In this document: in pieces, positions 14,714 to 33,403 of the stretch | Numbering within the stretch: the first letter of the stretch is position 1 | Layout: each line of letters opens with the position of its first letter | Assembly (NCBI GenBank): GCA_937974565.1 | Contig: CALJWL010000028.1 | Location: 1-64,000, forward strand | Direction of reading: 5' to 3' | Length of the DNA: 64,000 bases | Source: an uncultured Arenicella sp. | Lineage (GTDB): Bacteria; Pseudomonadota; Gammaproteobacteria; Arenicellales; Arenicellaceae | The notes under the pieces: model-generated | What the model saw: only the letters and a program-made list of their open reading frames with translations | What the model was told of the DNA's origin: nothing | Databases searched by the model: none | Translations under genes and position numbers: made by a program

Positions 14714-17700
14714 TTGAATATCCGAACTGGAGACACCACCAGCGACTCGCGTATTAATGCCATTTTCATCACTGTCATCGTCGTCTTGCGTGTCCCCCCC
14801 TCAGGAGCGGACGAAGTTAAACCAACTAAAGGCCCGTTGGCAACAAAATTGGATTCGGGTATGTGAACAAAATACGTGTCCGGCGTTAACAGGGTAAATA
14901 GATAGTGACCCTGTGAGTCTGTTAACTGAGTTGCCACTGGCGCATCTGTGCCAGCAAGATCACCACGGCGATAAAGTTCTACCGTGACGCCATTAATGCC
15001 CACTTCGCTACCATTGAGTATGCCATCGTTAGCGTCACCATTGCCCACACCATTATCAAGCCAAACGGTATTACCTATCGCAACGGACTGCACAAAACCA
15101 AAGTCCACGGTGAGATCGCTGCTCTGATCGTCAAACTGGTTAATGCCACTGGGGTCTACCTCAGCCACACCGTTGGCATCTAACTCGCCATTGGGTGTGC
15201 TGTTCGCGACTAAGGCGATGACGCCACTTTCCCAAGTGCCGTGGACAGTCACACGATTGAGGTCAAGGTTGGAATCAAGGTTACGGGTATCCACCGTGGC
15301 GTTTTGCACTGGGCTAGGTGCAAACACAACACCAGGTTCAACACGAATAATATAATCTCCAGCGGGCAAACCACTGAAGTTATAAGAGCCGTCTGGCACG
15401 GTAACAGCACCCGTGGGCCCATTCCAACTGTTGCTGGTAACCACACTGTTGTTCGCGCCTGATTGGTCGGCGGTATAAACACCATTAGTGTCAACAATCA
15501 CCGGTCGACCGGTTGACGTAAATAGCGACACAATGGCCCCATTGATACCCAACTCGTCGGCTTGTTGCACGCCATCGCCGTCGGTCGTGTCGACCACGGC
15601 ATTCTGATTGTCGTCTTCAAACACAACGGAGCCTAATGACACCGGTTGAAAGAAACCGAAGTCTAACCGCATATCACCATTGGTTTCAGCGGCATCGTCT
15701 TGCGCCGCACCGCCAGAGCCCGCTGTGTCGGTTTCTGGGTTAATTTCAGCACCGGCGGCCAGGTTCACGATGGATGATACAACTTCTGTTCCTATGCCCG
15801 CTGTTTGTAAACCGTTATCATCTTCATCAACGCCGGTGTTATCGGTATTCGGTGTCGTGCTAATGTCAGCCGAAGAACTCGGGAATTCATTAAGAGCATT
15901 GCCCACAGTGAAATTAGTAAGCGGTATGCTAACTTGATAATCGTCGCTCACTAAGTTTTGGAAATAGTAATTGCCGTCACCGTCAGTCAACGTACCCCCG
16001 ACAGCATCATCAAGCGTGCCTAACACGCCATCCGCCCCGACTGGAATTTCAACGCCACTGGCCGTAAACAACCGCACCCTCACATTCGCAATACCGGTTT
16101 CGCCTACGTTTTGCATGCCATCATTATTGACGTCATTGAAGACCGTTGATCCCAAGCTAACCGGCGCGTAAAAGCCTAAATCTAGGCGCATGTCGCCACT
16201 GCTCTCGTTAGCGTTATCTAAAGCATCACCGCCCGATCCTGCCGCGTTAGTTTCTACTGCCGTTTCAGCACCGGCGGTTAAGTTAATAGTCGGCGTAACC
16301 ACCGCAAAACCACTGCCGCCCGCTTGAATGCCATTGTCGTCTTCATCAATACCTGAAGCATCGGTATTGGCCGTCGTAGTAATATCGGTTGAAGAAGTAC
16401 TCGCCGCAACCAGTGCGCCACCGCCAACGAAGTTGCTTACGGGAACACGAACTTGATAATCACCACTCACCAAATTTTGGAAATGATAGTTACCGTTACC
16501 GTCGGTTAACACACCACCAAGGGCGTCGTCAGCACTACCCAAGATCCCATCAGGACCAACGGGTATCTCAACTCCTGTCGAACTAAATAATTGCACCGTT
16601 ACATTCTCGATACCACTCTCACCGGCTTCGTGCAGGCCGTTGTTATTAAGATCGCCAAACACGGTAGAACCCAAACTAACAGGGGCATAAAAGCCCAGAT
16701 CCAAACGCATGTCGCCATTGTCGTCGTCGACGTCATCTTGCGCATTACCGCCTGAGCCACCGACATTCGTTTCAAGACCGACTTCACCGTTATCTGTAAG
16801 CGTAACGATGGGAGTCAGCACCTGCGTGCCTGAACCTGCGACCTGAAGACCGTTGTCATCTTCATCAACGCCAGCGGCATCGGTATTAGGCGTAGTGGAA
16901 ATGTCCGTTGAAGAACTGGCCAACACCTGCAATGCACCACCGGTGGTAAAATTACTGATCGGTAAACGTACTTGATAATCACCTGGCGGTAGGCTTTGAA
17001 AGAAATAGTTGCCACTGGCATCCGTCAACATACCGCCGGAAGCGTCATCAATCGTGCCTAAAATGCCGTCTGATCCAACCAACACTTCGGCCCCAGCCGC
17101 GTTCAATAATTCAACCACAACATTAGCGATACCTAACTCGCCAGCCGCTTGCTGACCATCATTATTGATGTCATTAAATACAGTGGACCCCAGACTCACC
17201 GGTGCAAAGAAGCCAAAGTCCAATCGCATGTCACCACTGGTCTCCGCACTGTCGTCCTGCACATTACCACCAGACCCTCCAGCATCCGTTTCCGCATTGG
17301 TTTCGGCATTGGCGGTTAAGTTAATCACTGGCGACACCACTTCGGTACCAAAACCACCGGCCTGAATACCATTATCGTCTTCGTCTAAACCGGTTGCGTC
17401 TGTACTCGTTGTGCTGACGATATCAGAGGAAGAGCCCGTGTTAACCATCAACGCACCGCCACCGGTGAAATTGCTGATGGGAATACGCACTTGATAATCG
17501 CCCGTGACTAAATTTTGAAAATGATAATTGCCGTTACCGTCAGTCACCACACCTCCAAGAGCATCGTCGAGACTGCCAAGTATGCCGTCAGGCCCTACGG
17601 GTATCTCTACACCGGAGTCAGTAAATAATTGCACAACCACATTGGCAATGCCAACTTCAGTGGCATCATGCATGGCATTATTATTAACATCTGCGAACAC

Positions 17701-20700
17701 AGTAGAACCAACACTCACAGGCGTGTAAAAACCCAAATCAAGTCGCATATCACCGCTGTTTTCATCGGCATTATCCAAGGCTTCACCGCCCGATCCTCCT
17801 AAATCCGTTTCAACATTAGCTTCAGCTCCGGCGGTTAAGTTAATAATAGGAGTGGTAACGATGGTGCCACTGCCACCGGCCTGCAAACCATTATCATCTT
17901 CATCGACCCCACTGTTATCAGTATTTGGCGTGGTAACAATGTCGCTAGAAGAGGTAGGTAAGCCTTGCAAAGCACCGGTCACTGCAAAATTGCTTATCGG
18001 CACGCGTACTTGATAGTCACCACTGACCAAGTTCTGAAAATGATAATTTCCGTTTGAATCGGTTTGTACACCGCCTAAAGTATCATCCGCCGTGCCTAAA
18101 ATACCGTCTGGGCCAACAGGAATTTCAGCTCCGCTATTGGCAAATAACTGAACCACCACGTTTTGTACACCACTTTCACCCAGTTCATGAAGGCCATTAT
18201 TATCAGCATCATTAAATACCGTAGAACCAAGGCTGACCGGATCATAGAATCCGAAATCCAAACGCATATCGCCATTGGCTTCATTGGCATCGTCTTGAGC
18301 ATTACCGCCAGAACCACCCACATCTGTTTCTGGCGCTGTTTCCGCTCCCGCTGTGAGATTAATGATTGGCGACTCTACCTGAGTTCCTGACCCATTAGGT
18401 TGCAATCCATTATCATCTTCATCTATGCCTGAAGCGTCAGTACTTGCCGTGGTCGCAATATCCGTTGAGGAGCTAGGCAAATTGTTCAAACCGTTACCCA
18501 CTGAAAAATTAGCATCAGGAATTCGCACACGATAATCTCCTGGGGGTAACCCATCAAAATAATAATTACCGTTTGCATCGGTTAACACGCCTCCGGCACC
18601 GTCGTCAGATGAGCCGAGCATGCCATCGGCACCAACCAACACTTCACCACCAGCGCCGTCGAACAACTGAACCACCACATTACCCAAACCCGTTTCAGAT
18701 GAGTCTTGTATGGCGTTGTTATTGATGTCAGAAAACACCGTTGAACCTAGACTAACGGTCTGGAAGAAACCAAAGTCCAAACGCATATCGCCGTTGTTTT
18801 CATTGCCGTTATCTAAAGCGTCACCACCAGAACTTCCGTTATTGGTTTCAGCGCCTGTCTCTGCACCTGCGGTCAAATTGATGATAGGTGAGACAACTTG
18901 AGTACCGGGGCCACCCGCTTGTAGGCCGTTATCGTCTTCATCAACACCAGAGGCATCTGTGTTGGGTGTACTAACAATGTCTGTTGAAGACCCTAGATAA
19001 CTAGCTAATGCGTTACCCGTATCGAAGTTACTGACGGGTATGCGAACCTCGTAGTCGCCCCCCGTTAGGTTTTGAAAATGATAGTTGCCATTAATGTTGG
19101 TCGTGACACCACCGATAGCGTCGTCTAAGGTTCCTAATATGCCGTCAGGCCCGACTGGCACTTCGGCATTCGTGTTATCGAACAATTGCACCACCACATT
19201 AGCCAAGCCACGTTCACCGGCGTCATGCAAACCGTTATTATTGGCATCAGCAAAAACCGTTGACCCCAACGATACAGGAGCATAAAAGCCAAAATCCAGG
19301 CGCATATCTCCACTGTTTTCATCGGCGTTATCCAATGCATCACCGCCGCTGAGACCAACGTTACTCTCAGCAGCGGTTTCCGCACCTGCGGTCAACGTAA
19401 TGGTGGGTGACACCACAGCTGTACCGCTTCCCCCTGGTTGTAAACCATTGTCGTCTTCATCCACGCCACTGCCATTGGTATTCGCAGTTGTCGTCAAATC
19501 AGTTGAAGATGTACCCATATTCTCCAGAGCATTAGCACCCGTGAAGTTACTCGACGGTATTCGCACTTCATAATCACCACTGACTAAATTTTGAAAGTGA
19601 TAGTGACCACTGCCATTGGTAAACATGCCACCGACAGCGTCATCCGCTGTGCCTAAAATACCATCTGCCCCTACGAGGACTTCCGCCCCAGCTGAAGTAA
19701 ACAGCTGAATATTCACGTTGGCAATCCCGGTCTCAGTTGGGTCCTGAACGCCATTATTATTCGCGTCATTAAACACCGTAGACCCTAGGCTAACAGGATC
19801 ATAGAAGCCGAAATCCAAACGCATATCGCCATTATTTTCAATAGCGTTATCTTGCGCATCACCGCCCGATCCACCGAGGTTGGTTTCAAGACCCGTTTCA
19901 GCACCAGCCGTTAGATTGATAATCGGTGATACCACGGCACTCGCACTGCCACCGACCTGTAGACCATTGTCATCTTCATCCACTGCGCTGCCGTCGGTAT
20001 TTGGTGTAGTCACAATATCGGTTGACGAACTTGGGGTTGCCGCCAAGCCATTGCCCGTTGCAAAGTTGCTAACAGGCAAACGCACTTGATAGTCACCCGG
20101 TGGCAGTCCGTCAAAATAATAGTTACCGTTTGCACTCGTCAACACGCCGCCAGTACTGTCATCCAAGGTTCCTAGCATACCGTCAGGCCCAACTTCGATC
20201 TCAATGCCCAAATCATTGAATAGCCGCACGTTGACCCCAATAAGGCCTGACTCACCAGAGTCTTGCGTGCCATTATTATTTACATCATTGAATACCGTTG
20301 AACCCAAACTAACGGCTTGAAAGAAGCCAAAATCAAGACGCATATCACCATTACTTTCGTTGGTATTGTCCAAGATGTCACCACCTGACCCACCAACGTT
20401 CGTCTCAACGGCATTTTCATTACCGGCGGTCAGATTAACAATGGGCGACACCACTTGTGTTCCAGGGCCTCCTATTTGTAATCCATTGTCATCCTCATCA
20501 ATGCCAGTAGCATCAGTGTTTGCGGTACTTGGGATATCCGTAGAGGAACCTTGGTAAAGTTGCAGTGCATTACCAACAGCAAAGTTACTGGCTGGAATTC
20601 GAACCTCATAATCACCACTTACCAAGTTTTGAAAGTGGTAATTTCCACTGCTATCTGTGCTAATGCCGCCTAGAGCGTCGTCGGCGTTACCCAAAATACC

Positions 20701-23700
20701 ATCTGGACCTACCGGTACCTCTACCCCAGTAGCGCTAAATAATTGCACCACCACATTGGCTAAACCACTTTCGCCAGCGTCATGAATTGCATTGTTGTTA
20801 AGATCACCAAATACCGTAGACCCCAAGCTAACTGGCGCATAAAAACCAAGATCAAGACGCATGTCACCGCTGCTTTCATCAGCATTATCCAGTGCATCGC
20901 CGCCGGACCCTCCTGCGTTGGTTTCTACCGCTGTTTCAGCTCCGGCGGTTAAGTTAATGATTGGAGTAACAACAATCGTAGCCGCCCCCCCAGTTTGTAA
21001 ACCATTATCGTCTTCATCAACGCCAGTTGCGTCGGTATTTGTAGAGCTTGCAATGTCCGTAGACGAGGTGTTCAAATCATTTAGCGCCCCGGTGACAGCT
21101 GCAAAATTACTGACAGGCACTCGAACCTCATAATCACCACTCACCAAATTTTGAAAGTGGTAATTTCCAGCCCCATCGGTCATCATTCCGCCCACCGAGT
21201 CATCCGCCGTACCCAAAATGCCATCGGGCCCCACTGGCACTTCTACGCCAACACTGGTAAAAAGTTGAACCAGCACATTCTCGACACCAGGTTCTCCAGC
21301 ATCCTGCGTACCATTATTATTGAGATCGCTAAATACAGTGGAACCAAGGCTCACAGGAGCATAAAAGCCAAAGTCCAGGCGCATATCGCCATTATCATCA
21401 TTCGCATTATCTTGCGCATCACCACCGGAACCACCAAGGTTAGTTTCGGTTGCGGTTTCAGTCCCATCCGCCAGGTTAATCATTGGTGATACCACGGCAG
21501 TGGCACTGCCCGCGGTTTGTATCCCATTATCGTCTTCATCGACGCCCGTTGCGTCGGTGTTTGCAGTGGTTGCAATATCGGTTGACGAGCTTGGCGTGGT
21601 TGCTAACGCACCACTTGCCATAAAATTGCTGACTGGAATACGCACTTGATAATTGCCATCCAAAAGGTCTTGGAAGAAATAATTACCATTAACGTCCGTC
21701 AACATACCGCCACTTGAATCATCGGCATTACCGAGTATGCCATCCGCCCCGACCTGAATTTCTACCCCACTGTCGTTAAACACTTGGACTCTGACATTAG
21801 GAATGCCTAATTCGCCAGCATCTTGGATACCATTATTGTTCAGGTCACCAAAGACTGTTGAACCAAGTGAAACACTGGGGGGCGCAGTATTATTAATCAC
21901 AACAGTTGAGTTCGGCCGAATAAAGAAGCCAAAATCCAGACTGTGATTATTATGTCCCGCTAGGCCGCTGCTGTAATTGATTGTGGCCACACCAACGTCA
22001 TCAAATGCATCACTATCACGCACGTCAATCTGCGAATCATTACTGGCATTGCCTTCTGCATTGATAGGACTAAGAACGTAACCGGTGGGCGCACTGGGGA
22101 TGGTTACGGTGTAGGCGGTTTGTGGGTTGACTTGGAATAAATAGTTTCCATCACCCGAGGTCGTAATCATTGTTGGTGAGCCGCCGGCCACTGGGGTTAA
22201 GACCACCTCAACGCCATTAAGGCCAGGTTCACCGGGGTCTTGAATGCCATCTTGGTCAAAATCATCCCAAACACGGTTACCAATTTGATTTGGTGCTTGA
22301 TCACACAAAATCTCCACGTCACCCTGGCCATTGGCTTTGCCAAAACGGCCACCACCACCAAAACCAACGTCAAACTCAGTTCCATTCCACAGTTGAAAAC
22401 CAGCAACTCGCGCGCCGTTGGCAACGGTATTATTCCATTGAAAGCCGCCGGAGAAGATCGTTGTTTCAGGATCCATGGCGGAATAAACCGTTTCACCACT
22501 ACCTGGCAATACCGCCAACCCTCCTGTGGATGCCTCACGGTGTGCGTTTATACCTGAACGCGCATCAAAGAACGAAGCACCACCTGGGCCAGAATTCGCT
22601 GGCCCACTACCACTAACACCCCCACAGCTACCGTTATTTTCCAGTATGAAACTGCCGGTTCCATCTTCGCAAGCCTTAAGGACATCTCCCCCGATTTGAA
22701 TACCGATGGCACCACCGCCAGGGAAAGCGAAACTTGTGATTGCACCGGGATTATCCGGCTGCCTGTTCAAACCACCAATCTGAAAACCACTGCGATCGGC
22801 AAACCCGAGAATAAGGTGGTCGTCATCACCAAATTCCAAATCAGTTAACATAGGTGTGGGGCGCTGACCTAAGATGCCGTTATAAAGCGCGTCATTATAG
22901 GTGTTACGCCAAGGCATCCAAATATCGGTATTAACGCCCGCATCGTTGGCGCCCTCTTTGCTGTAGTTAAGAGGCACCTCCAATTCCTGCGTAAAGGTTC
23001 CCATGGGGTCGGAAGTATTAAATGAAAAAACATAGGCCACTAAATTACGAGCAATGTTTAACGTTAGGCCGGCTCCAGCAACGCCGGCATCCGCCTGGTT
23101 CTCCCCCGTACAAACGGCACCCAAATAACCAGTATCACCTCGCAATTTGAGTGCCCAAGGTCGCAATACACCATCGGTACAACTCGGCACACCCGCCGTA
23201 CCCAGCACATCAAATTCTTGTGCCGCAGAAGGGGCAACGCCGCCAGCAACATCTAGGCTCACCAGCGACCGATTGTTTAAGTTAACCATCCACAAGGTGG
23301 CGTTATCATCAGAAATATCAATATCACCAATACCAATTACACCCGCTTGCCCATAGGCTGCCGCATCGGTATTTTGCTCTACTACATTGGCAGGTAAACC
23401 ACGCGCTGCATTTGACCCGATGGTGCCAAAATCAATACCCAATGCACCGACATCCACAAAATTACTCGGGGATGGCGTTCCTGCTGGGTCAGAAATAGCG
23501 TAAATGCCAGCAATACCTAGAGAACCAAGGCCTGAATGTCGCTTCACGACAGCCGAAGCATACAAAACATCCGTATCTCGTTGGTATGCCAACCCCCATG
23601 TTGACCCAATTTGACTGGCTTGTGCCACAGTGGCAGCATTGCCAGTACGGTCGTAGTTAACGCTAGCCATCACCGATTGCGCCCCAGATTGATCACCATT

Positions 23701-24537
23701 AATGTAAATGGGTGTCACTACTTTAGGGTTGTCTTGGCAAAAACCAACAGCATCAATGAAACCCACACTATTGCCCGTAAGATTATTATCATCAATGAAC
23801 AAGGTGGTTGAACCATTATCCGCTCCAACAAAGCTCGGTTGAAGACCAAAGAGTGAGTCAACAAACTCCAAGCGCCATGGCCCACTGCAACTCGGGGTCA
23901 ATTCATAGCTGCCAATGGCACCCACCGATGGAGACCCACTGCCATCACGCGAGGTGGTGGTGCCACACACGACATTGTCGGCGCCATAGGCGGTGATCGT
24001 AACACCAGCCAGACCAGATTCTCCTAAGTTGAAAGCACCATTGCTGTTTTGATCCGCGTAGACTGAGCCGGATATCGGCGCAGCGGTAACCGGAGTAATA
24101 GTCCCCCCTGAAAGCGACAGTGTGCCTGCAACTTGTGGTGAAGAACCATCGACGGTATAGGTTATAGTCCAACCGGTTCCTGGAGACGTCTCGGTAATCG
24201 TGTAATCGCCAAACGGCAAACCAGTAAACGTATCGGTAGCACCGTCAACCAAGGTATCATTAATAGAGGTAAACCCAGCTGGCCCTGTAACGGTATAGGA
24301 AAATGCCATGCTCGGCACAGGCGTTCGACCATTCCAGTCAACTAATTTAGTCACGCTCAAGGAGCCGGTGGCCAGCGCCAATGTTGATGACAGCATGCAA
24401 ACCATTGCTGCAACAATAAGTGCTAACGCTCTTAGGTAACTTGGCACTGGGCCTGTGTGTGCGCGTTCTAACAGTGCCGGTTTTATGCTTTTAGTTAAAC
24501 GAGCTGTTACACACAACCTATTTTGTTTGCGTCCCAT
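14509..24537 (-). CDS. Giant SdrD-B-repeat surface protein, N-terminal part (frameshifted at residue 3248)
   Basis: A 3,342-codon open frame starting at ATG 24537, with AAGGGG about 8 bp upstream. An extended signal peptide has its hydrophobic core at about residues 35-56, followed by a prealbumin-like domain (SLSVTKLVDWNG...FGDYTITETSPG) and one B-type domain. A region of about 400 residues with propeller-like features precedes another B-type domain. From residue 889 come twelve tandem repeats of 173 residues (VSLGSTVF.D.NNNG ... DEDDNGLQ ... GDMRLDFGF), then two diverged domains. The frame leaves the repeat sequence at the G7 run; the last 94 residues are frameshift sequence. It is probably a surface adhesin or fibrous coat protein of the calcium-binding SdrD-like type. 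The export route is not visible. Confidence 0.88.
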   Translation of the reverse strand: MGRKQNRLCVTARLTKSIKPALLERAHTGPVPSYLRALALIVAAMVCMLSSTLALATGSLSVTKLVDWNGRTPVPSMAFSYTVTGPAGFTSINDTLVDGATDTFTGLPFGDYTITETSPGTGWTITYTVDGSSPQVAGTLSLSGGTITPVTAAPISGSVYADQNSNGAFNLGESGLAGVTITAYGADNVVCGTTTSRDGSGSPSVGAIGSYELTPSCSGPWRLEFVDSLFGLQPSFVGADNGSTTLFIDDNNLTGNSVGFIDAVGFCQDNPKVVTPIYINGDQSGAQSVMASVNYDRTGNAATVAQASQIGSTWGLAYQRDTDVLYASAVVKRHSGLGSLGIAGIYAISDPAGTPSPSNFVDVGALGIDFGTIGSNAARGLPANVVEQNTDAAAYGQAGVIGIGDIDISDDNATLWMVNLNNRSLVSLDVAGGVAPSAAQEFDVLGTAGVPSCTDGVLRPWALKLRGDTGYLGAVCTGENQADAGVAGAGLTLNIARNLVAYVFSFNTSDPMGTFTQELEVPLNYSKEGANDAGVNTDIWMPWRNTYNDALYNGILGQRPTPMLTDLEFGDDDHLILGFADRSGFQIGGLNRQPDNPGAITSFAFPGGGAIGIQIGGDVLKACEDGTGSFILENNGSCGGVSGSGPANSGPGGASFFDARSGINAHREASTGGLAVLPGSGETVYSAMDPETTIFSGGFQWNNTVANGARVAGFQLWNGTEFDVGFGGGGRFGKANGQGDVEILCDQAPNQIGNRVWDDFDQDGIQDPGEPGLNGVEVVLTPVAGGSPTMITTSGDGNYLFQVNPQTAYTVTIPSAPTGYVLSPINAEGNASNDSQIDVRDSDAFDDVGVATINYSSGLAGHNNHSLDFGFFIRPNSTVVINNTAPPSVSLGSTVFGDLNNNGIQDAGELGIPNVRVQVFNDSGVEIQVGADGILGNADDSSGGMLTDVNGNYFFQDLLDGNYQVRIPVSNFMASGALATTPSSSTDIATTANTDATGVDEDDNGIQTAGSATAVVSPMINLADGTETATETNLGGSGGDAQDNANDDNGDMRLDFGFYAPVSLGSTVFSDLNNNGTQDAGEPGVENVLVQLFTSVGVEVPVGPDGILGTADDSVGGMMTDGAGNYHFQNLVSGDYEVRVPVSNFAAVTGALNDLNTSSTDIASSTNTDATGVDEDDNGLQTGGAATIVVTPIINLTAGAETAVETNAGGSGGDALDNADESSGDMRLDLGFYAPVSLGSTVFGDLNNNAIHDAGESGLANVVVQLFSATGVEVPVGPDGILGNADDALGGISTDSSGNYHFQNLVSGDYEVRIPASNFAVGNALQLYQGSSTDIPSTANTDATGIDEDDNGLQIGGPGTQVVSPIVNLTAGNENAVETNVGGSGGDILDNTNESNGDMRLDFGFFQAVSLGSTVFNDVNNNGTQDSGESGLIGVNVRLFNDLGIEIEVGPDGMLGTLDDSTGGVLTSANGNYYFDGLPPGDYQVRLPVSNFATGNGLAATPSSSTDIVTTPNTDGSAVDEDDNGLQVGGSASAVVSPIINLTAGAETGLETNLGGSGGDAQDNAIENNGDMRLDFGFYDPVSLGSTVFNDANNNGVQDPTETGIANVNIQLFTSAGAEVLVGADGILGTADDAVGGMFTNGSGHYHFQNLVSGDYEVRIPSSNFTGANALENMGTSSTDLTTTANTNGSGVDEDDNGLQPGGSGTAVVSPTITLTAGAETAAESNVGLSGGDALDNADENSGDMRLDFGFYAPVSLGSTVFADANNNGLHDAGERGLANVVVQLFDNTNAEVPVGPDGILGTLDDAIGGVTTNINGNYHFQNLTGGDYEVRIPVSNFDTGNALASYLGSSTDIVSTPNTDASGVDEDDNGLQAGGPGTQVVSPIINLTAGAETGAETNNGSSGGDALDNGNENNGDMRLDFGFFQTVSLGSTVFSDINNNAIQDSSETGLGNVVVQLFDGAGGEVLVGADGMLGSSDDGAGGVLTDANGNYYFDGLPPGDYRVRIPDANFSVGNGLNNLPSSSTDIATTASTDASGIDEDDNGLQPNGSGTQVESPIINLTAGAETAPETDVGGSGGNAQDDANEANGDMRLDFGFYDPVSLGSTVFNDADNNGLHELGESGVQNVVVQLFANSGAEIPVGPDGILGTADDTLGGVQTDSNGNYHFQNLVSGDYQVRVPISNFAVTGALQGLPTSSSDIVTTPNTDNSGVDEDDNGLQAGGSGTIVTTPIINLTAGAEANVETDLGGSGGEALDNADENSGDMRLDLGFYTPVSVGSTVFADVNNNAMHDATEVGIANVVVQLFTDSGVEIPVGPDGILGSLDDALGGVVTDGNGNYHFQNLVTGDYQVRIPISNFTGGGALMVNTGSSSDIVSTTSTDATGLDEDDNGIQAGGFGTEVVSPVINLTANAETNAETDAGGSGGNVQDDSAETSGDMRLDFGFFAPVSLGSTVFNDINNDGQQAAGELGIANVVVELLNAAGAEVLVGSDGILGTIDDASGGMLTDASGNYFFQSLPPGDYQVRLPISNFTTGGALQVLASSSTDISTTPNTDAAGVDEDDNGLQVAGSGTQVLTPIVTLTDNGEVGLETNVGGSGGNAQDDVDDDNGDMRLDLGFYAPVSLGSTVFGDLNNNGLHEAGESGIENVTVQLFSSTGVEIPVGPDGILGSADDALGGVLTDGNGNYHFQNLVSGDYQVRVPVSNFVGGGALVAASTSSTDITTTANTDASGIDEDDNGIQAGGSGFAVVTPTINLTAGAETAVETNAAGSGGDALDNANESSGDMRLDLGFYAPVSLGSTVFNDVNNDGMQNVGETGIANVRVRLFTASGVEIPVGADGVLGTLDDAVGGTLTDGDGNYYFQNLVSDDYQVSIPLTNFTVGNALNEFPSSSADISTTPNTDNTGVDEDDNGLQTAGIGTEVVSSIVNLAAGAEINPETDTAGSGGAAQDDAAETNGDMRLDFGFFQPVSLGSVVFEDDNQNAVVDTTDGDGVQQADELGINGAIVSLFTSTGRPVIVDTNGVYTADQSGANNSVVTSNSWNGPTGAVTVPDGSYNFSGLPAGDYIIRVEPGVVFAPSPVQNATVDTRNLDSNLDLNRVTVHGTWESGVIALVANSTPNGELDANGVAEVDPSGINQFDDQSSDLTVDFGFVQSVAIGNTVWLDNGVGNGDANDGILNGSEVGINGVTVELYRRGDLAGTDAPVATQLTDSQGHYLFTLLTPDTYFVHIPESNFVANGPLVGLTSSAPEGGTRKTTMTVMKMALIRESLVVSPVRIFNCWWGLSQWARVAIMITCLTHNWMTAQTARLTLVLCPCKSALLATMCGWMKTPTENKTRANPVFQTLS
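14794..14800 (-). other. G7 homopolymer at the frameshift joining two halves of the giant gene
   Basis: On the coding strand the upstream frame reads GAG GGG GGG ACA, giving the pattern G_GGG_GGG. After this run the upstream frame turns into non-repeat sequence and stops 94 codons later. The -1 frame continues directly as GDTQDDDDSDENG and on to DSTVDFGFVP, typical of the domain family. One extra G, or a -1 ribosomal slip on the run, would give a continuous product of about 5,412 residues. Confidence 0.88.
15643..21873 (-). repeat. Array of twelve 519-bp coding repeats
   Basis: Twelve consecutive copies of a 173-codon unit, measured from the VSLGSTVF motif of unit 1 (21873) to the same motif after unit 12 (15642): 6,231 bp, averaging 519 bp. 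The protein motifs DGILGTADD, GNYHFQNLVSGDYEVRIP, VDEDDNGLQ and GDMRLDFGF recur in register. Neighbouring units differ at many synonymous positions, so the array is not a fresh duplication. Confidence 0.93.
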
Positions 24538-25067: not shown

Positions 25068-26003
25068 TTATTGAGACTGGATTGACATCAAGCGCCAGTG
25101 ATTTGTCTCAGGCATAAGAATAAAAAAATACTTCTTGTAGCGCCTCATGGTTTCTGCGGCTGGGCGATAGGCGAATTCGGTGTCGTCTAAAACCATGGCT
25201 AATCGGCCTGACGGATCAGCTTTGAATCGTATTTTACGAATTTGGGTACTGTCGCCGTTTTTCTGCTCTAACAATGAGAGTTGACGTTGCGGTGCTTGTC
25301 CTTTGGTGAAACCACCGTCGTTTCGTAAACGCACCGAATACAAGTTCGATGAACGCGCATCACCGTAGTACAACTGCTTACCTTTGGGTGAATTGAACAC
25401 AGCCAAACTGAGCGCATCCACACCGTTAAAACGGCTTAAAACTTTGCCAGTGGTTAAGTCTAACTGATAAATAATGCCCGCCACCTGTGCTGGTGTGGAG
25501 TGTGCCACCGAGCTTACGTAAAGCGAATTGGTTTGACAATCAATTGCCAAACCGAGTGTCCCAAAGGGGTTTGATTGCGTTTGCTCTGCTGGTTTAGGCA
25601 GATCAACAAACACCTCAATATCACCGCTACCAGAATGGACCTTATAAATTCGATTGCGTTTGTCTAATGGATTGGTATCCAAAGCGATGCTGGGTATTGG
25701 CGCCACATAAATCGCACCTTGAGCATCACGAACGCTGCTACCAACATGCCCCGTGTTTTTCCAGCTTTCTTTTTGATACAACCGCCGTTGGCCTTGCAAT
25801 TCGCGAATTACAATGCCAGGTAATCTAGAAATACTGGTGTCAATTGCGACCGGTGTCTTTAGGTCCAGGTTTTGAATAAAGCGAGGCATGCCGGCACACG
25901 CATAAGCATCAATGTAAGGTCGAGTTTGGGCGGTTACGGTGGCGCATAAGCTCAGCCAAACGGTGGCTAAGAATGCGCTGACATGCCGATCAATACGCCT
26001 CAC
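25068..26003 (-). CDS. Exported propeller-like protein of unknown function
   Basis: Function unknown. The frame is open from an ATG at 26051, but I prefer GTG 26003. It overlaps the stop of the upstream gene as GTGA and puts a short basic n-region (RRIDRH) right before the hydrophobic core SAFLATVWLSLCATVTAQT of a signal peptide. The mature part of about 285 residues has repeated short segments such as IYVAPIPSIALDTNPLDKRNRIYKV, NSLYVSSVAH and KQLYYGDARSSNLYSVRL. These resemble blades of an SMP-30/NHL-type beta propeller. The overlap with the amine-oxidase-like gene suggests coupled translation and a joint role outside the cytoplasm. The propeller assignment rests on pattern only. Confidence 0.72.
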   Translation of the reverse strand: MRRIDRHVSAFLATVWLSLCATVTAQTRPYIDAYACAGMPRFIQNLDLKTPVAIDTSISRLPGIVIRELQGQRRLYQKESWKNTGHVGSSVRDAQGAIYVAPIPSIALDTNPLDKRNRIYKVHSGSGDIEVFVDLPKPAEQTQSNPFGTLGLAIDCQTNSLYVSSVAHSTPAQVAGIIYQLDLTTGKVLSRFNGVDALSLAVFNSPKGKQLYYGDARSSNLYSVRLRNDGGFTKGQAPQRQLSLLEQKNGDSTQIRKIRFKADPSGRLAMVLDDTEFAYRPAAETMRRYKKYFFILMPETNHWRLMSIQSQ

Positions 26004-27904
26004 TTCGAGCGCTCGATTGGCACAAACATTGGCCCAGCGGTGCAAGGCCATGTTTTGGTTTTAAGTGTACCGTCCACCACTTTGTTTTCAGCCCAACAGT
26101 ACTCTTGACCTTTTGTACCATCATTATTCATCTGCGGAACGTACCATAATATCTGCTGACGCCCCAGTAACTCTTCACGAGGTTGCATGAACTGCTCTGG
26201 GCCTTGTTCATGGTTACTGTTACAACAGCTGCCCAGAGTAACTAAGTCTCGATCACCTTCTTCCTTATTTGAGTTTTGGGCTGTGATATATATAAACGCG
26301 TTATCTCCTCGCCCACCGTCACCAAATTGACCGTGCGAGGGTTCCATCAGATACCCTTGGCCTTTAGCATCGATAATTCGGTGGCTGTATCGCTTATATT
26401 GCAAACGATCGGGCGTTTTTTGCTGGCTCCAGGATTCGTGTTTTATTGGCTGCCATTGGTCATCCCAGTCTTGTATTGAGTAATACGAATTATCAGACGA
26501 TTTACCTAAGTCCATACGAAAAACGGGACGATAAGTACCATTAGAGCCGCAGCCGCGACCATGACTCTTTAGCGCCACACGAAAACGCCCATCATCATAA
26601 AACTCATAACTCTCTTCATACCGATAATTGCACGGAGCGGGCCATGAGTGCTGTTGAAATTGCTGTGATATGGCAAAACCCACTTCTTTACCTTTAATGA
26701 AAATAGGGGTGATTTCAGGTCCTTGAAATGCAACCACCACCGCCGAGCTAAACATAGGGCAGCCAGTTGCATCACTGTAGCCAAATTTATCTTCTTGAGA
26801 ATAGCTAACATGCCAATCTACGACCTTAGCCGAGGCAAAAACAGGCGTTTCTGCGTATGTCGCATTGGCGATTCTCAACCCGTCAGAGCTGGTGATGTGA
26901 TAATCAAACTTCCAGCCATTTTGTTGGTGACTGGATACTTCCTCACAAAAGTTTTTGAACACATATTCATTCTCTAAAATACGTTCAGTAATCACTGTTG
27001 TTGGGCCTGCATTACCCACGTTTGTCCAACGTACTCCTACGACCTTCATGTCGGTTAAATCAACAATAACCCACATGGCCTTATCACCCAATACATACGT
27101 CGGCGCAACACACAGGTGTTTGGAGCGTTCGCATAAGGTGTCTCGAAGCGCGGATTTAGTATCCACCATTACAGGTCGAATATCACGAGCTTGGGTTTCA
27201 TCACCTATAAAGTCTAAATAGCGAGACACCTCTAATTGCACTGCCGGCTCAAATTTCGCAATGTCCACCGCAAGCGCCCTTAGTCGTTCGCTTAGCTCCG
27301 GTTGGGTCTCGGCTAGACTGCCTGTGGCGACTATTTTTTTTCCAATGACATCGACCAACGCACTAATGGAACTGTTAAAGTAAAAGTTGTAGAGATTGAC
27401 TCGATAACACTCAGTCGCCTCACAAGCACCATTAGTGCCAACAATATCCCCAGGTAAAGCGGGTTTTACTGACATCACTTCAGTTCGTAATGGTTTACCG
27501 TGCTGAGGTGAATACGAAGATTGCCGAACAGACTCGTTAGCTAACACCACATCTTGAGCCACTTTTTCTTTAGACCCTTGTTCAAGATTCAAACCCAGTA
27601 TGGGTACCTTTGATTCAAGCACTTCGGAGATGCGCTTCTGGTAACTTAATTTAGCCGGTGCTTCACTTGCATCAAACTGCAAAGCCACCAGGGCTAATTT
27701 GGCCTCATCGTAAGGCTGTTGGAGTGTTGTCGCCGAGGTCACACCATCAACCTCAGTAGCATTAAGGTGGTGAGTAAATAACAGCACAGAACTTAAAAAA
27801 AAGGACGCCGTTCGCAGCGATTTAAATACTTGCGAAACAATGCTGTGCTGAGTGCGATCCCCTACGATGTTAGACGACTCGAACGTACTAATGGAAAATT
27901 TCAA
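26000..27904 (-). CDS. Divergent copper-amine-oxidase-like exported protein
   Basis: A 634-residue product starting at TTG 27904, supported by AGGAG six bases upstream, with a long signal-peptide region (hydrophobic core about residues 33-44). Segments recall copper amine oxidases: GWKFDYHITSSDGLRIANATY (about 330-350), then VVDWHVSYSQEDKFGYSDATG. Next comes NYRYEESYEFYDDGRFRV (about 426-443), at the place of the N-Y-D/E-Y cofactor motif. If that alignment is right, the Asp/Glu is Arg, and the HxH copper-ligand segment is TYRPVFRMDL (457-466), so two copper ligands are absent. It may be a non-catalytic relative. It is the first gene of a two-gene unit with the propeller-like protein. Family call is moderate. 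Confidence 0.6.
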   Translation of the reverse strand: MKFSISTFESSNIVGDRTQHSIVSQVFKSLRTASFFLSSVLLFTHHLNATEVDGVTSATTLQQPYDEAKLALVALQFDASEAPAKLSYQKRISEVLESKVPILGLNLEQGSKEKVAQDVVLANESVRQSSYSPQHGKPLRTEVMSVKPALPGDIVGTNGACEATECYRVNLYNFYFNSSISALVDVIGKKIVATGSLAETQPELSERLRALAVDIAKFEPAVQLEVSRYLDFIGDETQARDIRPVMVDTKSALRDTLCERSKHLCVAPTYVLGDKAMWVIVDLTDMKVVGVRWTNVGNAGPTTVITERILENEYVFKNFCEEVSSHQQNGWKFDYHITSSDGLRIANATYAETPVFASAKVVDWHVSYSQEDKFGYSDATGCPMFSSAVVVAFQGPEITPIFIKGKEVGFAISQQFQQHSWPAPCNYRYEESYEFYDDGRFRVALKSHGRGCGSNGTYRPVFRMDLGKSSDNSYYSIQDWDDQWQPIKHESWSQQKTPDRLQYKRYSHRIIDAKGQGYLMEPSHGQFGDGGRGDNAFIYITAQNSNKEEGDRDLVTLGSCCNSNHEQGPEQFMQPREELLGRQQILWYVPQMNNDGTKGQEYCWAENKVVDGTLKTKTWPCTAGPMFVPIERSK

Positions 27905-27937
27905 TGTCTCTCCTGAGATGTTTTTCTTAATGCATTA

Positions 27938-27972
27938 CCTTAACTAAAACCTTAACTAAAACCTTAACTAAA
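27938..27972. repeat. Three tandem 12-bp repeats upstream of the amine-oxidase-like gene
   Basis: CCTTAACTAAAA occurs three times head to tail (27938-27949, 27950-27961, 27962-27972, the last one base short), 34-68 bp upstream of the TTG start at 27904. It could be a regulator-binding array or a spacer element in the promoter or leader. Confidence 0.8.
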
Positions 27973-28371
27973 TAGGCTGAGCATTCCTCATACGGTGAGC
28001 AACAACACACACAGTGACAACGCACACAAACCTTTAGTAAAGGTATTCTTAAAGGGGTCAATCAAGTAGCTTCACTCATGAGTCATTTTTGACAGCAGAG
28101 TAATGGCGTAGTGTTTGGGCATCTTAATCGAATGAGTTTTAAAACTCGAGTAAGGACTAACTCTCATTTACATTCGAGGCCCCTAAGATAAAAGTCACTA
28201 TGATAGCGCCGTCTGATATATATATACATCAAGCTCGGTGTCTTTGGCAAACCAAGCTTTTTTCTTTGAACCGCGGCAGCCAAATAAAGCACCAATGCCC
28301 ACCTTAGTTTTTGCCATTCCTTGACGTTACTTAGTGGGCAATCTAATCATCATTGAACGTTTTATCAAATC

Positions 28372-28470: not shown

Positions 28471-28950
28471 CTAGGCATCATAATTAACTGATACTACTTC
28501 GTAGGTTTTTTCCCCGGCCGGTGCCTGAAAAGTAAACTCGTCACCTTCCAGCTTGCCAATTAAAGCTTTACCGATTGGCGAACTGATTGAAATTTTTCCT
28601 TGATCAATATCAGCTTCTAAGTCACCCACCACTTGGTAACTCACTTCTTTGTCGGTGTCGACATCATAGAGTTTCACCAAAGTGCCAAATACTACTTTGC
28701 CGCTGATATTCAATTTAGCGGGGTCAATTACTTCGGCAACGCCTAGACTGCCTTCCAACTCTTTAATGCGACCTTCAATAAAGCTTTGTTGCTCACGCGC
28801 AGCATGATATTCCGCATTTTCCGACAAGTCTCCATGAGCTCTGGCTTCGGCAATGGCCTCAATAATTTTCGGTCTCTCAACACTCTTTAAGTTTTTAAGC
28901 TCGGCTTGCAGCCTTTCCGCACCTTTGGCGGTTAACAATACACGATCCAT
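28471..28950 (-). CDS. greA: Transcription elongation factor GreA
   Basis: Rescues backtracked RNA polymerase by stimulating cleavage of the 3' end of the transcript. The 159-residue product has the N-terminal coiled coil, with the acidic tip motif [23 protein letters not shown] at about residues 41-63, and the C-terminal FKBP-like domain ending in [15 protein letters not shown]. It follows carB by 42 bp in the common carA-carB-greA order. It starts at ATG 28950. Confidence 0.97.
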
Positions 28951-28992
28951 TTTTCTATCTTTTATAAACTGATGTTTTACTTAATCTAAACG

Positions 28993-31900
28993 CTACTTAA
29001 GCGACTCATGCAAATCTTGCAATTTGCTAACACGCATTTCACACAATGCTTTATGAGCAGCTACCATAGCACGGGCCGAAGAAATATTCGTTGAATAGGT
29101 CACTTTGTGCATCAGTGCTTCACGACGAATCGTATACGAATCTCTCACTGACCCGGTAGTTGACGTTGTGTTAATGACCAAGTCAGCCTGATCATCGATG
29201 ATCATATCGACAATATGTGGTCGCCCTTCGGCAACTTTATTAACGGCTTTCACCTGAATACCCGCCGCCTCAAAAGCGGCAGCTGTGCCGCGTGTGGCGA
29301 CAATATTAAAACCTGCTCCGCTGAGATATTTGGCTAGCTCAATGGCCGCTTCTTTATCTGAATTACGTACGCTGAACAAGGCCGTGCCTGTCTGTGGTAT
29401 CACCGAACCACTGCCCTGCTGAGATTTATCATACGCCTCACCAAATGTGCGGCCCACGCCCATCACTTCGCCCGTCGACTTCATTTCAGGTCCCAGTAAT
29501 GTATCAACACCTGGGAATTTAACAAACGGAAATACCGCCTCTTTAACCGAATAGTAATCGGGAACAATTTCATCATCGATGCCTTGTTCATCCAGTGACT
29601 TACCAGCCATGCATAAAGCCGCCACCTTGGCTAACGGCCGAGATGTGGCTTTGGAGACAAACGGCACCGTACGCGAAGCTCGTGGGTTCACTTCCAGTAC
29701 GTAGATCGTGTTGCCTTTTATGGCGAATTGAACGTTCATTAAACCAATTACATTCAACGCAAGCGCCATTTTTTTGGTCTGCTCTCTGAGTTCAGTTTTT
29801 ATTTCTTCAGATAAGCTAAAAGGCGGCAGCGAACACGCTGAATCGCCGGAATGAACACCTGCTTCTTCAATGTGTTCCATAATGGCGCCAATAACAACCC
29901 GCTTACCATCACAGATAGCGTCAACATCCACTTCAATTGCATCGTTCAAGAAACGATCCAATAACACCGGTGACTCATTCGATACTTGAATCGCTGAGTG
30001 CATGTAATTTTTTAATGACGCGCTGTCGTGTACGATTTCCATTGCTCGCCCACCGAGAACATAAGACGGACGTACAACCAATGGATACCCAACTTCTTCC
30101 GCCAGAGACAGTGCGGTTTCTTCACTCGATGCAATACGATTAGGCGGTTGCTTTAGGTTTAAACGGTTCAATAGCGCTTGAAACTCTTCACGGTCTTCAG
30201 CGTCATGAATGGCTTTTGGCGAAGTACCAATGATTCGAGTGCCTTCGGCTTTTAGTGGTCTGGCCAGCTTCAATGGGGTTTGACCACCGTACTGAACAAT
30301 CACGCCTGTTGGGTCTTCTTTGTGGACGATTTCAAGCACATCCTCAAGCGTCAACGGCTCAAAGTAGAGTCGATCTGAAGTGTCGTAATCGGTTGATACA
30401 GTTTCAGGGTTACAGTTAACCATGATAGTTTGATAGCCATCTTCCCGTAACGCCATCGCCGCATGAACACAACAATAATCAAATTCAATACCTTGGCCTA
30501 TGCGATTGGGACCGCCACCTAGAACCATGATTTTTTTGGTAGTCTCAGGCTCAGCCTCACACTCATGCTCATAGGTCGAATACATATAAGCGGTGGCGGT
30601 GGAAAACTCAGCCGCACAAGAATCCACTCGTTTATACACAGGGCGCACATCCAATGCGTGACGTTTAGCACGAAATTGATCTTCGCTTACACCAAGAATT
30701 TCAGACAGTCGTACATCCGAAAAGCCTTTACGTTTCCAAGAAAACACTTGGTCCGCCGTTAACGAAGAGAGTGACGTTCGACTCACTAGTGATTCGGTTG
30801 CGATTAAATCTTCGATCTCAGCCAAAAACCAAGGTTCGATACCCGTTGCCTCATGCACGTCTTTAACGCTCAAACCTTCACGAAACGCTTGGCCGATGTA
30901 CCATAAACGATCGGCTTTCGGTACACGTAAAGCTTCGCTTAAACGTTGGGCCCGAGACTCGCCTTCAAGACCAACAAGCTGTGGTTCAAAACCATGACTG
31001 CCAATTTCCAAACTGCGCATGGCTTTTTGCAACGACTCTTGAAACGTTCGACCAATCGCCATTGCTTCACCCACAGACTTCATTTGAGTGGTTAATGTGC
31101 TGTCGGCTTGCGGAAACTTTACAAAGTCAAAACGCGGAATTTTGGTTACGACATAATCAATACTGGGCTCGAATGACGCAGGAGTTAAACCGCCCGTGAT
31201 TTCATTTCGTAACTCATCAAGCGTATAGCCCACTGCCAATTTGGCAGCCACCTTGGCAATGGGAAAGCCCGTGGCTTTGGATGCGAGTGCCGAAGAGCGC
31301 GACACACGAGGGTTCATCTCAATAATGATCATTCGACCCGTTTTCGGATCAATAGCAAATTGTACATTAGAGCCGCCTGTATCGACTCCAATCTCGCGCA
31401 GCACAGCCAATGAGGCATCACGCATAATTTGATACTCTTTATCGGTCAGTGTTTGGGCTGGCGCGACTGTGATCGAGTCCCCCGTATGCACTCCCATGGC
31501 ATCAAAGTTTTCAATTGCGCAAATGATGATGCAATTATCTTTGCGATCGCGAACCACTTCCATCTCATACTCTTTCCAACCGAAAATACACTCTTCGATT
31601 AGCAGTTCGTTGGTGGGAGATGCGTCTAGTCCGCGTTCGCAAATCTCCACAAACTCTTCTTTATTATAAGCAATACCACCGCCTGTTCCCCCCATGGTAA
31701 ACGAGGGGCGGATAATCACGGGCAAGCCTAAATCTTCAAGAATGTCAAACGACTCATCCATGGTATGAGCGATGTCACCACGGGCAATATCAAGCCCAAT
31801 TTTTTGCATCGCAGCTTTAAATTGGTCACGATCTTCAGCCTTATCAATGGCTTCCTTTTTTGCGCCAATCATCTCGACGCCATACTTTGCTAAAACGCCT

Positions 31901-32214
31901 TCGCGCTCTAAGTCAAGCGCGCAGTTAAGTGCTGTTTGCCCACCCATGGTCGGCAATAATGCGTCTGGACGTTCAACTTCGATTATTTTTTCTACCGCTT
32001 GCCAACTGATAGGCTCGATATAGGTGGCATCAGCAAACCCTGGGTCGGTCATGATTGTGGCAGGGTTCGAGTTAACCAACACAACTCGATAGCCCTCTTC
32101 TTTCAATGCTTTACAAGCTTGAACCCCAGAATAATCAAATTCGCAGGCCTGTCCAATAATGATTGGGCCAGCACCGATAATTAAGACGGTTTGAATGTCA
32201 TTACGTTTTGGCAT
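28993..32214 (-). CDS. carB: Carbamoyl-phosphate synthase, large subunit
   Basis: Makes carbamoyl phosphate for arginine and pyrimidine synthesis using ammonia passed from CarA. The 1,073-residue product equals the E. coli length. It has two homologous ATP-grasp halves, beginning [21 protein letters not shown] near residue 10 and [21 protein letters not shown] near residue 560. A C-terminal MGS-like allosteric domain starts around [18 protein letters not shown]. It lies 40 bp after carA, in operon with it and probably with greA. Confidence 0.98.
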
Positions 32215-32254
32215 TTCTATCTTCCTAATCTTGTTTAAGCAAAATGGGGCGTGT

Positions 32255-33403
32255 CTATCGACCTGCTTGCATTAATTTAATAAATCGTTCGAACAGCGGC
32301 GCCACATCACGTGGACCAGGGCTGGCTTCAGGGTGCCCTTGAAACGAAAAGGCCGGAACATCAGTACGAGTAATGCCTTGAATAGTGCCATCAAACAAAG
32401 AGCGATGCGTGACTTCAACGTTGTCCGGCAACCCCTTTTCCTTCACCGCAAAACCGTGATTTTGGCTTGTGATCATGACCTTTTTACTGGCCAAATCTTG
32501 CACTGGATGATTTGCACCGTGGTGCCCGAATTTCATTTTTTCGGTCTGAGCATTTGAGGCTAAGGCCAAAATTTGATGCCCAAGACAAATACCAAAGATG
32601 GGTTTACCCGCCGCAATGATTTCTTTCGTCGCGTCAATAGCATAATCACACGGCTCGGGGTCTCCGGGGCCGTTTGATAGAAACACACCATCGGGGTTTT
32701 CAGCCAGCACATCGGCAGCTGGCGTTTTAGCGGGAACCACAATTACCTCACAACCCAACTCCACTAAGATTCGCAAAATGTTGTGCTTTACCCCAAAATC
32801 ATACGCGACAACCTTAAATTGCCCATTGGGTTTATTTTCATAACCACTTTCGAGAGACCAGACCGCTTGTTCCCATTGATAAGCGTCTTGGGTGGTCACT
32901 TCTTGGGCTAAATCCATACCTTTAAGGCCAGGAAAACCCTGAGCGGCTTTGACCGCTTTTTCTGCATCGTCTTGACCAACAAAGTTTGCGGCTATCAAGC
33001 ACCCATTTTGCGCTCCTTTTTCACGCAAAATTCGAGTCAACTTCCGAGTGTCGATGTCGGCAATGGCGATGGTATTATTTTCCTTAAGATAGTCGTCCAA
33101 ATTTTGAGTGTTACGCCAATTGTTTGCCAAGCGCGGAAGATCACGAATGATCAGCCCCGCTGCATGCACTTGGTCAGACTCGGTGTCTTCAACCGTGGTG
33201 CCCGTGTTACCAATGTGCGGATACGTTAAGGTTACTATCTGCTTAGAATAAGAAGGGTCAGTTAAAATTTCTTGATAACCCGTCATTGAAGTGTTGAATA
33301 CCACTTCTCCAACGGATTGCCCTTCTGCACCAATGGACTGCCCCCAAAAGAGCGTTCCGTCTTCTAATGCCAGTAGTGCTGTGTGCTTAGCAGATGTGTT
33401 CAC
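32255..33403 (-). CDS. carA: Carbamoyl-phosphate synthase, small (glutamine amidotransferase) subunit
   Basis: Hydrolyses glutamine and passes ammonia to CarB. The 382-residue product starts at GTG 33403. It has the N-terminal CPSase domain ([14 protein letters not shown]...[18 protein letters not shown]) and the class I amidotransferase domain with [10 protein letters not shown], the nucleophile segment [13 protein letters not shown] and the HPEASPGP histidine/glutamate segment. The upstream region to the dapB terminator is about 115 bp and should carry the promoter; I could not identify an Arg box or attenuator in it. Confidence 0.98.

Follow-up and report, generated by a model that had tools for sequence, protein, structure and literature searches.

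The gene pair and its proposed role

The 64,000-nucleotide stretch analysed here (the window), positions 1 to 64,000 of contig CALJWL010000028.1 from an uncultured Arenicella sp. (assembly GCA_937974565.1; 3.37 Mb), carries two adjoining genes, one for a protein related to copper amine oxidases (CuAO) and one for a beta-propeller protein. We propose, with a probability of roughly 0.5, that a CuAO descendant devoid of the Cu(His)3 site and its propeller partner form an extracytoplasmic, non-enzymatic pair for the export, folding, assembly or anchoring of SdrD-B surface proteins. The CuAO fold seems to have been reused for surface fibres, since copper residues are lost, the propeller is present alongside and giant fibrous neighbours are usual; the role in surface fibres is suggested by gene order and by presence and absence shared with the surface proteins. 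The CuAO-like protein would act outside the cytoplasm together with the adjacently encoded propeller, and at the periplasmic or outer-membrane face the pair would bind surface proteins during their export, folding, joining or anchoring. The CuAO fold would then be a binding scaffold, or a periplasmic or outer-membrane chaperone, rather than an enzyme. Its clients would be large fibrillar proteins composed of a propeller-like head and SdrD-B domains and, in a second family (f86), also of DUF11 domains.

The CuAO-like gene spans positions 26000-27904 on the minus strand and encodes 634 amino acids (aa) with a signal-like N-terminal segment; it begins with TTG, and AGGAGA is located 4 bases upstream. 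The open reading frame (ORF) of the propeller extends over 25068-26051 on the same strand (327 aa at its longest), and an alternative GTG start at 26003 gives a product with a signal-like N-terminus (25068-26003). This GTG overlaps the stop codon of the CuAO-like gene as GTGA (26000-26003, minus strand, read from the sequence), in agreement with the original prediction of an exported propeller-like gene downstream. The pair is flanked by greA, carB and carA ORFs (28471-33403, recognised by eye) and by a giant surface-protein gene (14509-24537). Inspection by eye also revealed a short direct repeat, CCTTAACTAAAA, present in about three copies at 27937-27974, upstream of the CuAO-like gene.

Relationship to copper amine oxidases

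Common descent of the family with CuAO is well supported by profile comparisons. The family alignment (A3) comprises 25 CuAO-like members; the protein of locus L035 (G480) was excluded because of undetermined residues, and L002 and L039, the same contig as judged by equal length and ORFs, were counted once. The Pfam profile Cu_amine_oxid (PF01179) matches all 25 members at E ≤ 1 (best 3.5e-7), while each of the eight further Pfam families listed matched one member. In the window protein, the match covers residues 329-375 with E 0.0015 and 18 bits, under the family cut-off of 27. A second profile, built from 12 proteins (five genuine CuAOs and seven truncated CuAO-like proteins), detected 25/25 members at 9.4-36.4 bits, 20 of them at E ≤ 1.6e-4 (Z 10,000), and the window protein at 14.1 bits (E 0.0077); among 225 shuffled or reversed decoys the maximum was 0.1 bit. 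Alignment of the family with the five genuine CuAOs by hhalign gave a probability of 87% and E 3.7e-6 over residues 169-589 (391 columns).

Other comparisons gave little or nothing. Searching the CuAO proteins with the family profile, in the reverse direction, yielded only a weak result (best E 0.65, Z 10,000), and PDB sequence searches returned no match with the protein (E ≤ 10) or with the 25-member profile (E ≤ 1). Structure prediction from a two-sequence input (the window protein and L002) was unusable, with a predicted local distance difference test (pLDDT) of 34 and a predicted template-modelling score (pTM) of 0.26. The CuAO-like core originally placed at residues 330-466 is thus borne out by profiles with their controls, not by structure, and the CuAO fold, deduced from sequence, is itself unproven. 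CuAOs carry N-terminal cystatin-like domains ahead of the enzyme domain; the corresponding region of the family has no Pfam match at E ≤ 10, although the hhalign alignment does run through it. No PF01179 match was found in the window's genome at E ≤ 0.001.

Another genome, G134, encodes truncated CuAO-like proteins whose enzyme domains measure about 400 aa (L078 7822-13207, L079 7597-11154 and L080 8541-9920). In L078 and L079 their genes stand in tandem pairs, in which the first kind of protein retains HxH as well as the distant His and has S/A-Y in place of N-Y, and the second kind is devoid of HxH. A gene of 222-224 aa stands beside these pairs, and tyrosinase-like and di-haem peroxidase-like genes were recognised by eye near the pair in L079. 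As candidate intermediates these proteins were rejected: with hhalign probabilities of 1% (alignment A5) and 67% (alignment A6), a closer relationship is not demonstrated.

Loss of the copper site

According to the excerpt available of PMC3382800, CuAOs require three His ligands, the consensus T-X-X-N-Y-D/E and an Asp base. In the family, NYRY (residues 426-429, codons at 26618-26629 on the minus strand) is identical in 25/25 members and is placed on the CuAO motif NYDY by hhalign, hmmsearch and MAFFT alike. The N-Y of the consensus is therefore kept and D/E is replaced by Arg throughout, as had been read from the window alone. The segment of the HxH ligands was likewise said to read TYRP (residues 457-460, codons at 26525-26536, minus strand). 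Here Y-R-P is invariant, the first position is T in 17/25 and M in 8/25 members, and no member has His in the segment, while exact replacement of HxH is uncertain because the MAFFT alignment is gapped there and TYRP sits only roughly in place. The segment of the third His (W587-YVPQMN-N594, codons at 26123-26146, minus strand) has invariant W, Y, V, P, Q and N594 and no His.

Independently of how TYRP is aligned, none of the 25 members has a His at residues 449-466 or 585-606, so the three-His ligand set is absent. H263 and H365 are the only invariant His residues in the whole protein, and therefore no three-His site made of invariant His exists, wherever placed. A conserved replacement metal site, suggested as something to look for in homologues, was not found among the 25 members, which have no cluster of invariant His beyond these two and no other obvious conserved metal cluster. 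Twelve Cys residues are invariant; this suggests disulfides and would fit an exported protein rich in them. Loss of the copper site in the family is thus supported at the level of sequence, and topaquinone formation or amine oxidation by its members is very unlikely. The changed positions are themselves strictly conserved, which suggests constraint for another function, that is reuse and not decay, and upholds the original prediction of a non-catalytic or re-purposed member that lost its copper ligands.

Remaining chemistry around C425-N426-Y427 is possible and makes the main enzymatic alternative. It would hold that N426-Y427, together with the neighbouring C425 and R428, make up a novel site, either covalent or metal-free, for modifying surface proteins, for example at Lys side chains; we consider this distinctly unlikely. 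C425, N426, Y427, D378 and Y458 are invariant in 25/25 members. D378 may or may not be the old catalytic base, and hmmsearch and MAFFT align it differently relative to the catalytic-base Asp. In the proposed client families, SdrD-B and DUF11, Lys-Asn isopeptide bonds are known or predicted for some members (PMC12617251, excerpt). Against such an enzyme speaks the Arg that stands where the topaquinone consensus needs D/E (PMC3382800, excerpt). The three-His site is absent without any other obvious conserved metal cluster in its stead. Isopeptide bonds in SdrD-B/DUF11-type domains, moreover, form by themselves, without an enzyme.

In comparison with the CuAO enzyme domain (PF01179; AGAO, HPAO, ECAO), the family is alike in its profile match in 25/25 members and in the alignment of NYRY with NYDY. 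What sets it apart is the absence of Cu ligands, an Arg in the D/E position that follows the cofactor Tyr, shorter loops, the 12 invariant Cys and the propeller partner. Among plant CuAOs, the clade I / zeta group is reported to be without the T/S-X-X-N-Y-D motif, and thus also consists of CuAO relatives with an altered active-site motif. In that group the whole motif is reported lost, whereas the bacterial family keeps N-Y and loses the His ligands, and the excerpt reports no linkage to surface fibres (PMC12058724). No copper-less bacterial CuAO family was recognisable by titles and abstract beginnings among the open-licence literature matches listed, and searches combining CuAO with pseudoenzyme, CuAO with SdrD, and Arenicella with amine oxidase found no open-licence papers.

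The beta-propeller partner

The family profile of the partner matches E. coli YncE (3vgz) with E 3.5e-5. The structural model is modest (pLDDT 54.7, pTM 0.62), and Foldseek against the PDB ranked propeller lactonases and YncE first (E 3.8e-6 to 5.6e-5, TM-scores < 0.5). Profile and model thus both point to a beta-propeller fold. The partner's top matches by structure and by profile include YncE and lactonase-type propellers, with an identity of only about 8-17% in the fold matches listed; three proteins scanned reached 19-21 bits, far under the NCBIfam YncE cut-off of 400.

In 24/26 loci the propeller gene lies no more than 2.6 kb downstream of the CuAO-like gene and in the same orientation, and in 19 of these 24 linked loci the two ORFs overlap or are at most 2 nucleotides apart. 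In the other two genomes, G461 and G465, the propeller is located on a contig other than that of the CuAO-like gene, yet it is present. All 21 CuAO-like proteins of f86 have a lipobox; among the five members of the window's genus one match to the pattern (L039) was judged spurious. By eye, the N-termini of the 10 aligned f86 propellers look lipobox-like. The pair would accordingly consist of lipoproteins in f86, and in the window's genus its two proteins have signal-like N-termini.

Distribution of the pair and of the linked surface proteins

The CuAO-like protein was found in 5/18 genomes of the window's genus, in 21/63 genomes of one other family, f86, in 3/369 genomes sampled from the class and in 1/398 genomes sampled from the phylum, the last being the window's own. 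The propeller is present in the same 5/18 genus genomes and the same 21/63 f86 genomes. Because these sets coincide, 26 of 81 genomes carry both genes and 55 carry neither intact. A sixth genus genome, G009, has a broken fragment (L007, contig 108) that matches 68 residues of the CuAO-like protein and contains in-frame stops, and it shows no propeller match; this is perhaps a loss in progress. The suggestion that the two proteins form one extracytoplasmic complex is strengthened in its genetic part, by the linkage in 24/26 loci and the shared 26/81 genomes, while a physical complex is something that we infer.

The head module of the linked surface proteins, apparently propeller-like, follows the same distribution in f86, where it occurs in the same 21/63 genomes and, by a weak match of 62 residues, in G454. 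In the window's genus it was found in 3/18 genomes, all among the five with the pair, and in the class sample in 3/369. Presence and absence vary within two f86 genera, g97 (3/9) and g298 (2/3), in both of which the CuAO-like protein, the propeller and the head module come and go together; a third genus, g299, is uniform (16/16) and five genera have none. With two genera mixed, one uniform and five without, the contrasts are few but concordant.

ORFs with SdrD-B repeats or the head module lie downstream of the pair in 22/26 loci, while the upstream genes are not the same in the two lineages, so that the link between pair and surface proteins is not a matter of merely shared surroundings. The same observations bear on the idea that all these genes are functionally unlinked passengers of a hitch-hiking genomic island. 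The patchy occurrence, with 3/369 class genomes and 1/398 phylum genomes, would fit an island. Yet G461 and G465 keep all the genes though these are on separate contigs, and this set of genes is seen again in two families whose upstream genes differ, which makes a shared ride very improbable. No relative was detected in one scan of viral contigs or by tblastn against plasmids; phages were not searched.

Genomes carry one match each for the CuAO-like protein and the propeller, and 1 to 18 for the head module. Such numbers would also suit structural or receptor parts of a surface organelle, its base or cap, in place of assembly factors, as would the exported appearance of both proteins and their lipid anchors in f86 (propeller N-termini judged by eye). 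Neither protein, however, shows by eye the linking segments with which the DUF11 proteins described below start or end, and we hold this alternative to be unlikely.

Several observations weigh against a non-enzymatic pair dedicated to SdrD-B surface proteins. Two of the five pair-bearing genus genomes have no head-module match (E 1e-5) and only SdrD-B repeat ORFs, and in 4/26 loci no SdrD-B or head-module ORF was seen, one of these (L041) being a contig of 3.8 kb. Conversely, one class genome, G350, has the head module with no match to the CuAO-like protein (E ≤ 0.01) or the propeller. Co-occurrence within one genus (g299, 16/16) does not count as independent. Retention of N426, Y427 and perhaps an Asp would suit a remaining reaction. 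Finally, interaction within the pair and a chaperone role are both inferred. The head-module protein of G350 (L081) is located on a 4.7-kb contig (contig 200) of a genome in 590 contigs with 7% contamination.

Surface proteins in the window

The giant gene downstream of the pair (14509-24537, minus strand) encodes 3342 aa, with a head module at residues 151-740 (DNA 22318-24087) and SdrD-B repeats, for which the Pfam scan matched SdrD_B in 16 stretches. An apparent continuation in another frame (8300-14713, minus strand) adds 2137 aa, which by eye consist of SdrD-B-type repeats. Seven consecutive G (14794-14800) lie near the frame shift between the two ORFs and may reflect either phase variation or a sequencing or assembly error. 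Directly after the giant protein, and overlapping the end of its ORF, a gene at 6078-8303 (minus strand) encodes a C25/PorU-related protein of 741 aa (156 bits against a family cut-off of 450). The encoded protein is related to sortases of type IX secretion. The Pfam scan found no DUF11 in the 3342-aa ORF (the 2137-aa ORF was not scanned), and for this reason the split-domain mechanism considered below is not claimed for the window.

Apparently split DUF11 domains in f86

Surface proteins of f86 suggest, from their sequences, a fibre whose subunits are joined head to tail via one split domain. The loci concerned are L031-L035, L040-L055 and L082-L088. The DUF11 profile used for the count derives from six proteins that are themselves counted, and only complete ORFs were included, those touching locus ends being excluded. 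In 41 of the 42 ORFs matching the profile (18 loci), the protein ends 0-7 residues from the same point of the domain, in 37 within 0-1, some of the 41 being short pieces (136-448 aa) and possibly frame-shift fragments. In the six f86 surface proteins and two shafts scanned, the Pfam DUF11 match breaks off at position 84 (of 114), one residue short of the C-terminus. Most internal DUF11 copies continue into N(T/A)AEI. Segments of this kind start 14 ORFs in 9 loci, a few residues past the apparent end of the signal peptide (by eye), as in TITNCAQVSA...DSTPNN...EDDEAC; the pattern returned 14 rows, of which L032 was dropped as spurious, and L043 5441-6982 was added by eye.

Terminal domains have K in the Lys column in 41/41 cases and D (39/41) or E (2/41) in the Asp column, and the Asn-bearing part is absent from all 41. 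Of eight internal copies, six have K, seven have D and seven have N in the respective columns. The DUF11 domain, renamed CLIPPER, forms a Lys715-Asn806 isopeptide bond in 9IFR, presumably catalysed by Asp748, and in such folds the bond connects the first and the penultimate strand (PMC12617251, excerpt). PDB searches found no solved relative of the internal domains, so the mapping to 9IFR follows motif and rough spacing, not an alignment: the spacings are 37 and 55 residues in f86 versus 33 and 58 in 9IFR (PMC12617251, excerpt).

Seven clusters were extended, and in all of them except L087 a giant protein of 2459-4345 aa comes after the ORFs with open DUF11 ends. This giant, missing from L087, has no open DUF11 end of its own and terminates in LSQWG...FRRRRED. 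The C-terminus of the giant scored above cut-off as an IPTL-CTERM signal in both proteins tested, and a start segment was found at its N-terminus by pattern in three clusters and by eye in three. Some open-end ORFs are shafts of about 500 aa with both a start segment and an open DUF11 end. Tips and shafts occur in varying order, and in L044 the shaft-type ORF comes first, ahead of a tip-type one. A profile of internal DUF11 ends gave weak results against 366 N-termini and 366 shuffles: ten real N-termini (best E 2.7e-5) outrank the best shuffle (E 1.4), eight through the NC(A)(Q/E) start and two through the later part only, and the remaining N-termini that carry this start do not outscore the shuffles.

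We put forward tentatively, as a doubtful extension, that the f86 pair is a dedicated assembly apparatus of an undescribed fibre. Its tips and shafts would end in a DUF11 domain that lacks the last two strands and keeps the reactive Lys and the catalytic Asp, and its shafts and anchors would begin with those strands and the Asn, giving a strand-complemented, possibly covalent Lys-Asn link up to a giant anchor with IPTL-CTERM; the window pair would serve one giant polypeptide. In f86, the strands missing at the end of one surface protein could be provided by the beginning of another, which recalls donor-strand pili and archaeal threads, the latter with donor strands and proposed intermolecular isopeptide bonds (PMC9715654, excerpt). 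As far as the excerpt goes, f86 differs from these in using DUF11 (CLIPPER) with SdrD-B parts and an IPTL-CTERM anchor and in apparently missing two strands, an arrangement that was not seen in the window. No split DUF11 fibre was recognisable by title or abstract beginning among the literature matches listed, including PMC12617251, PMC9210967, PMC11952670 and PMC9715654. The proposed split-DUF11 Lys-Asn link between f86 proteins would be a natural counterpart of tag/catcher pairs and, if true, such split-domain surface proteins could yield a new natural tag/catcher pair.

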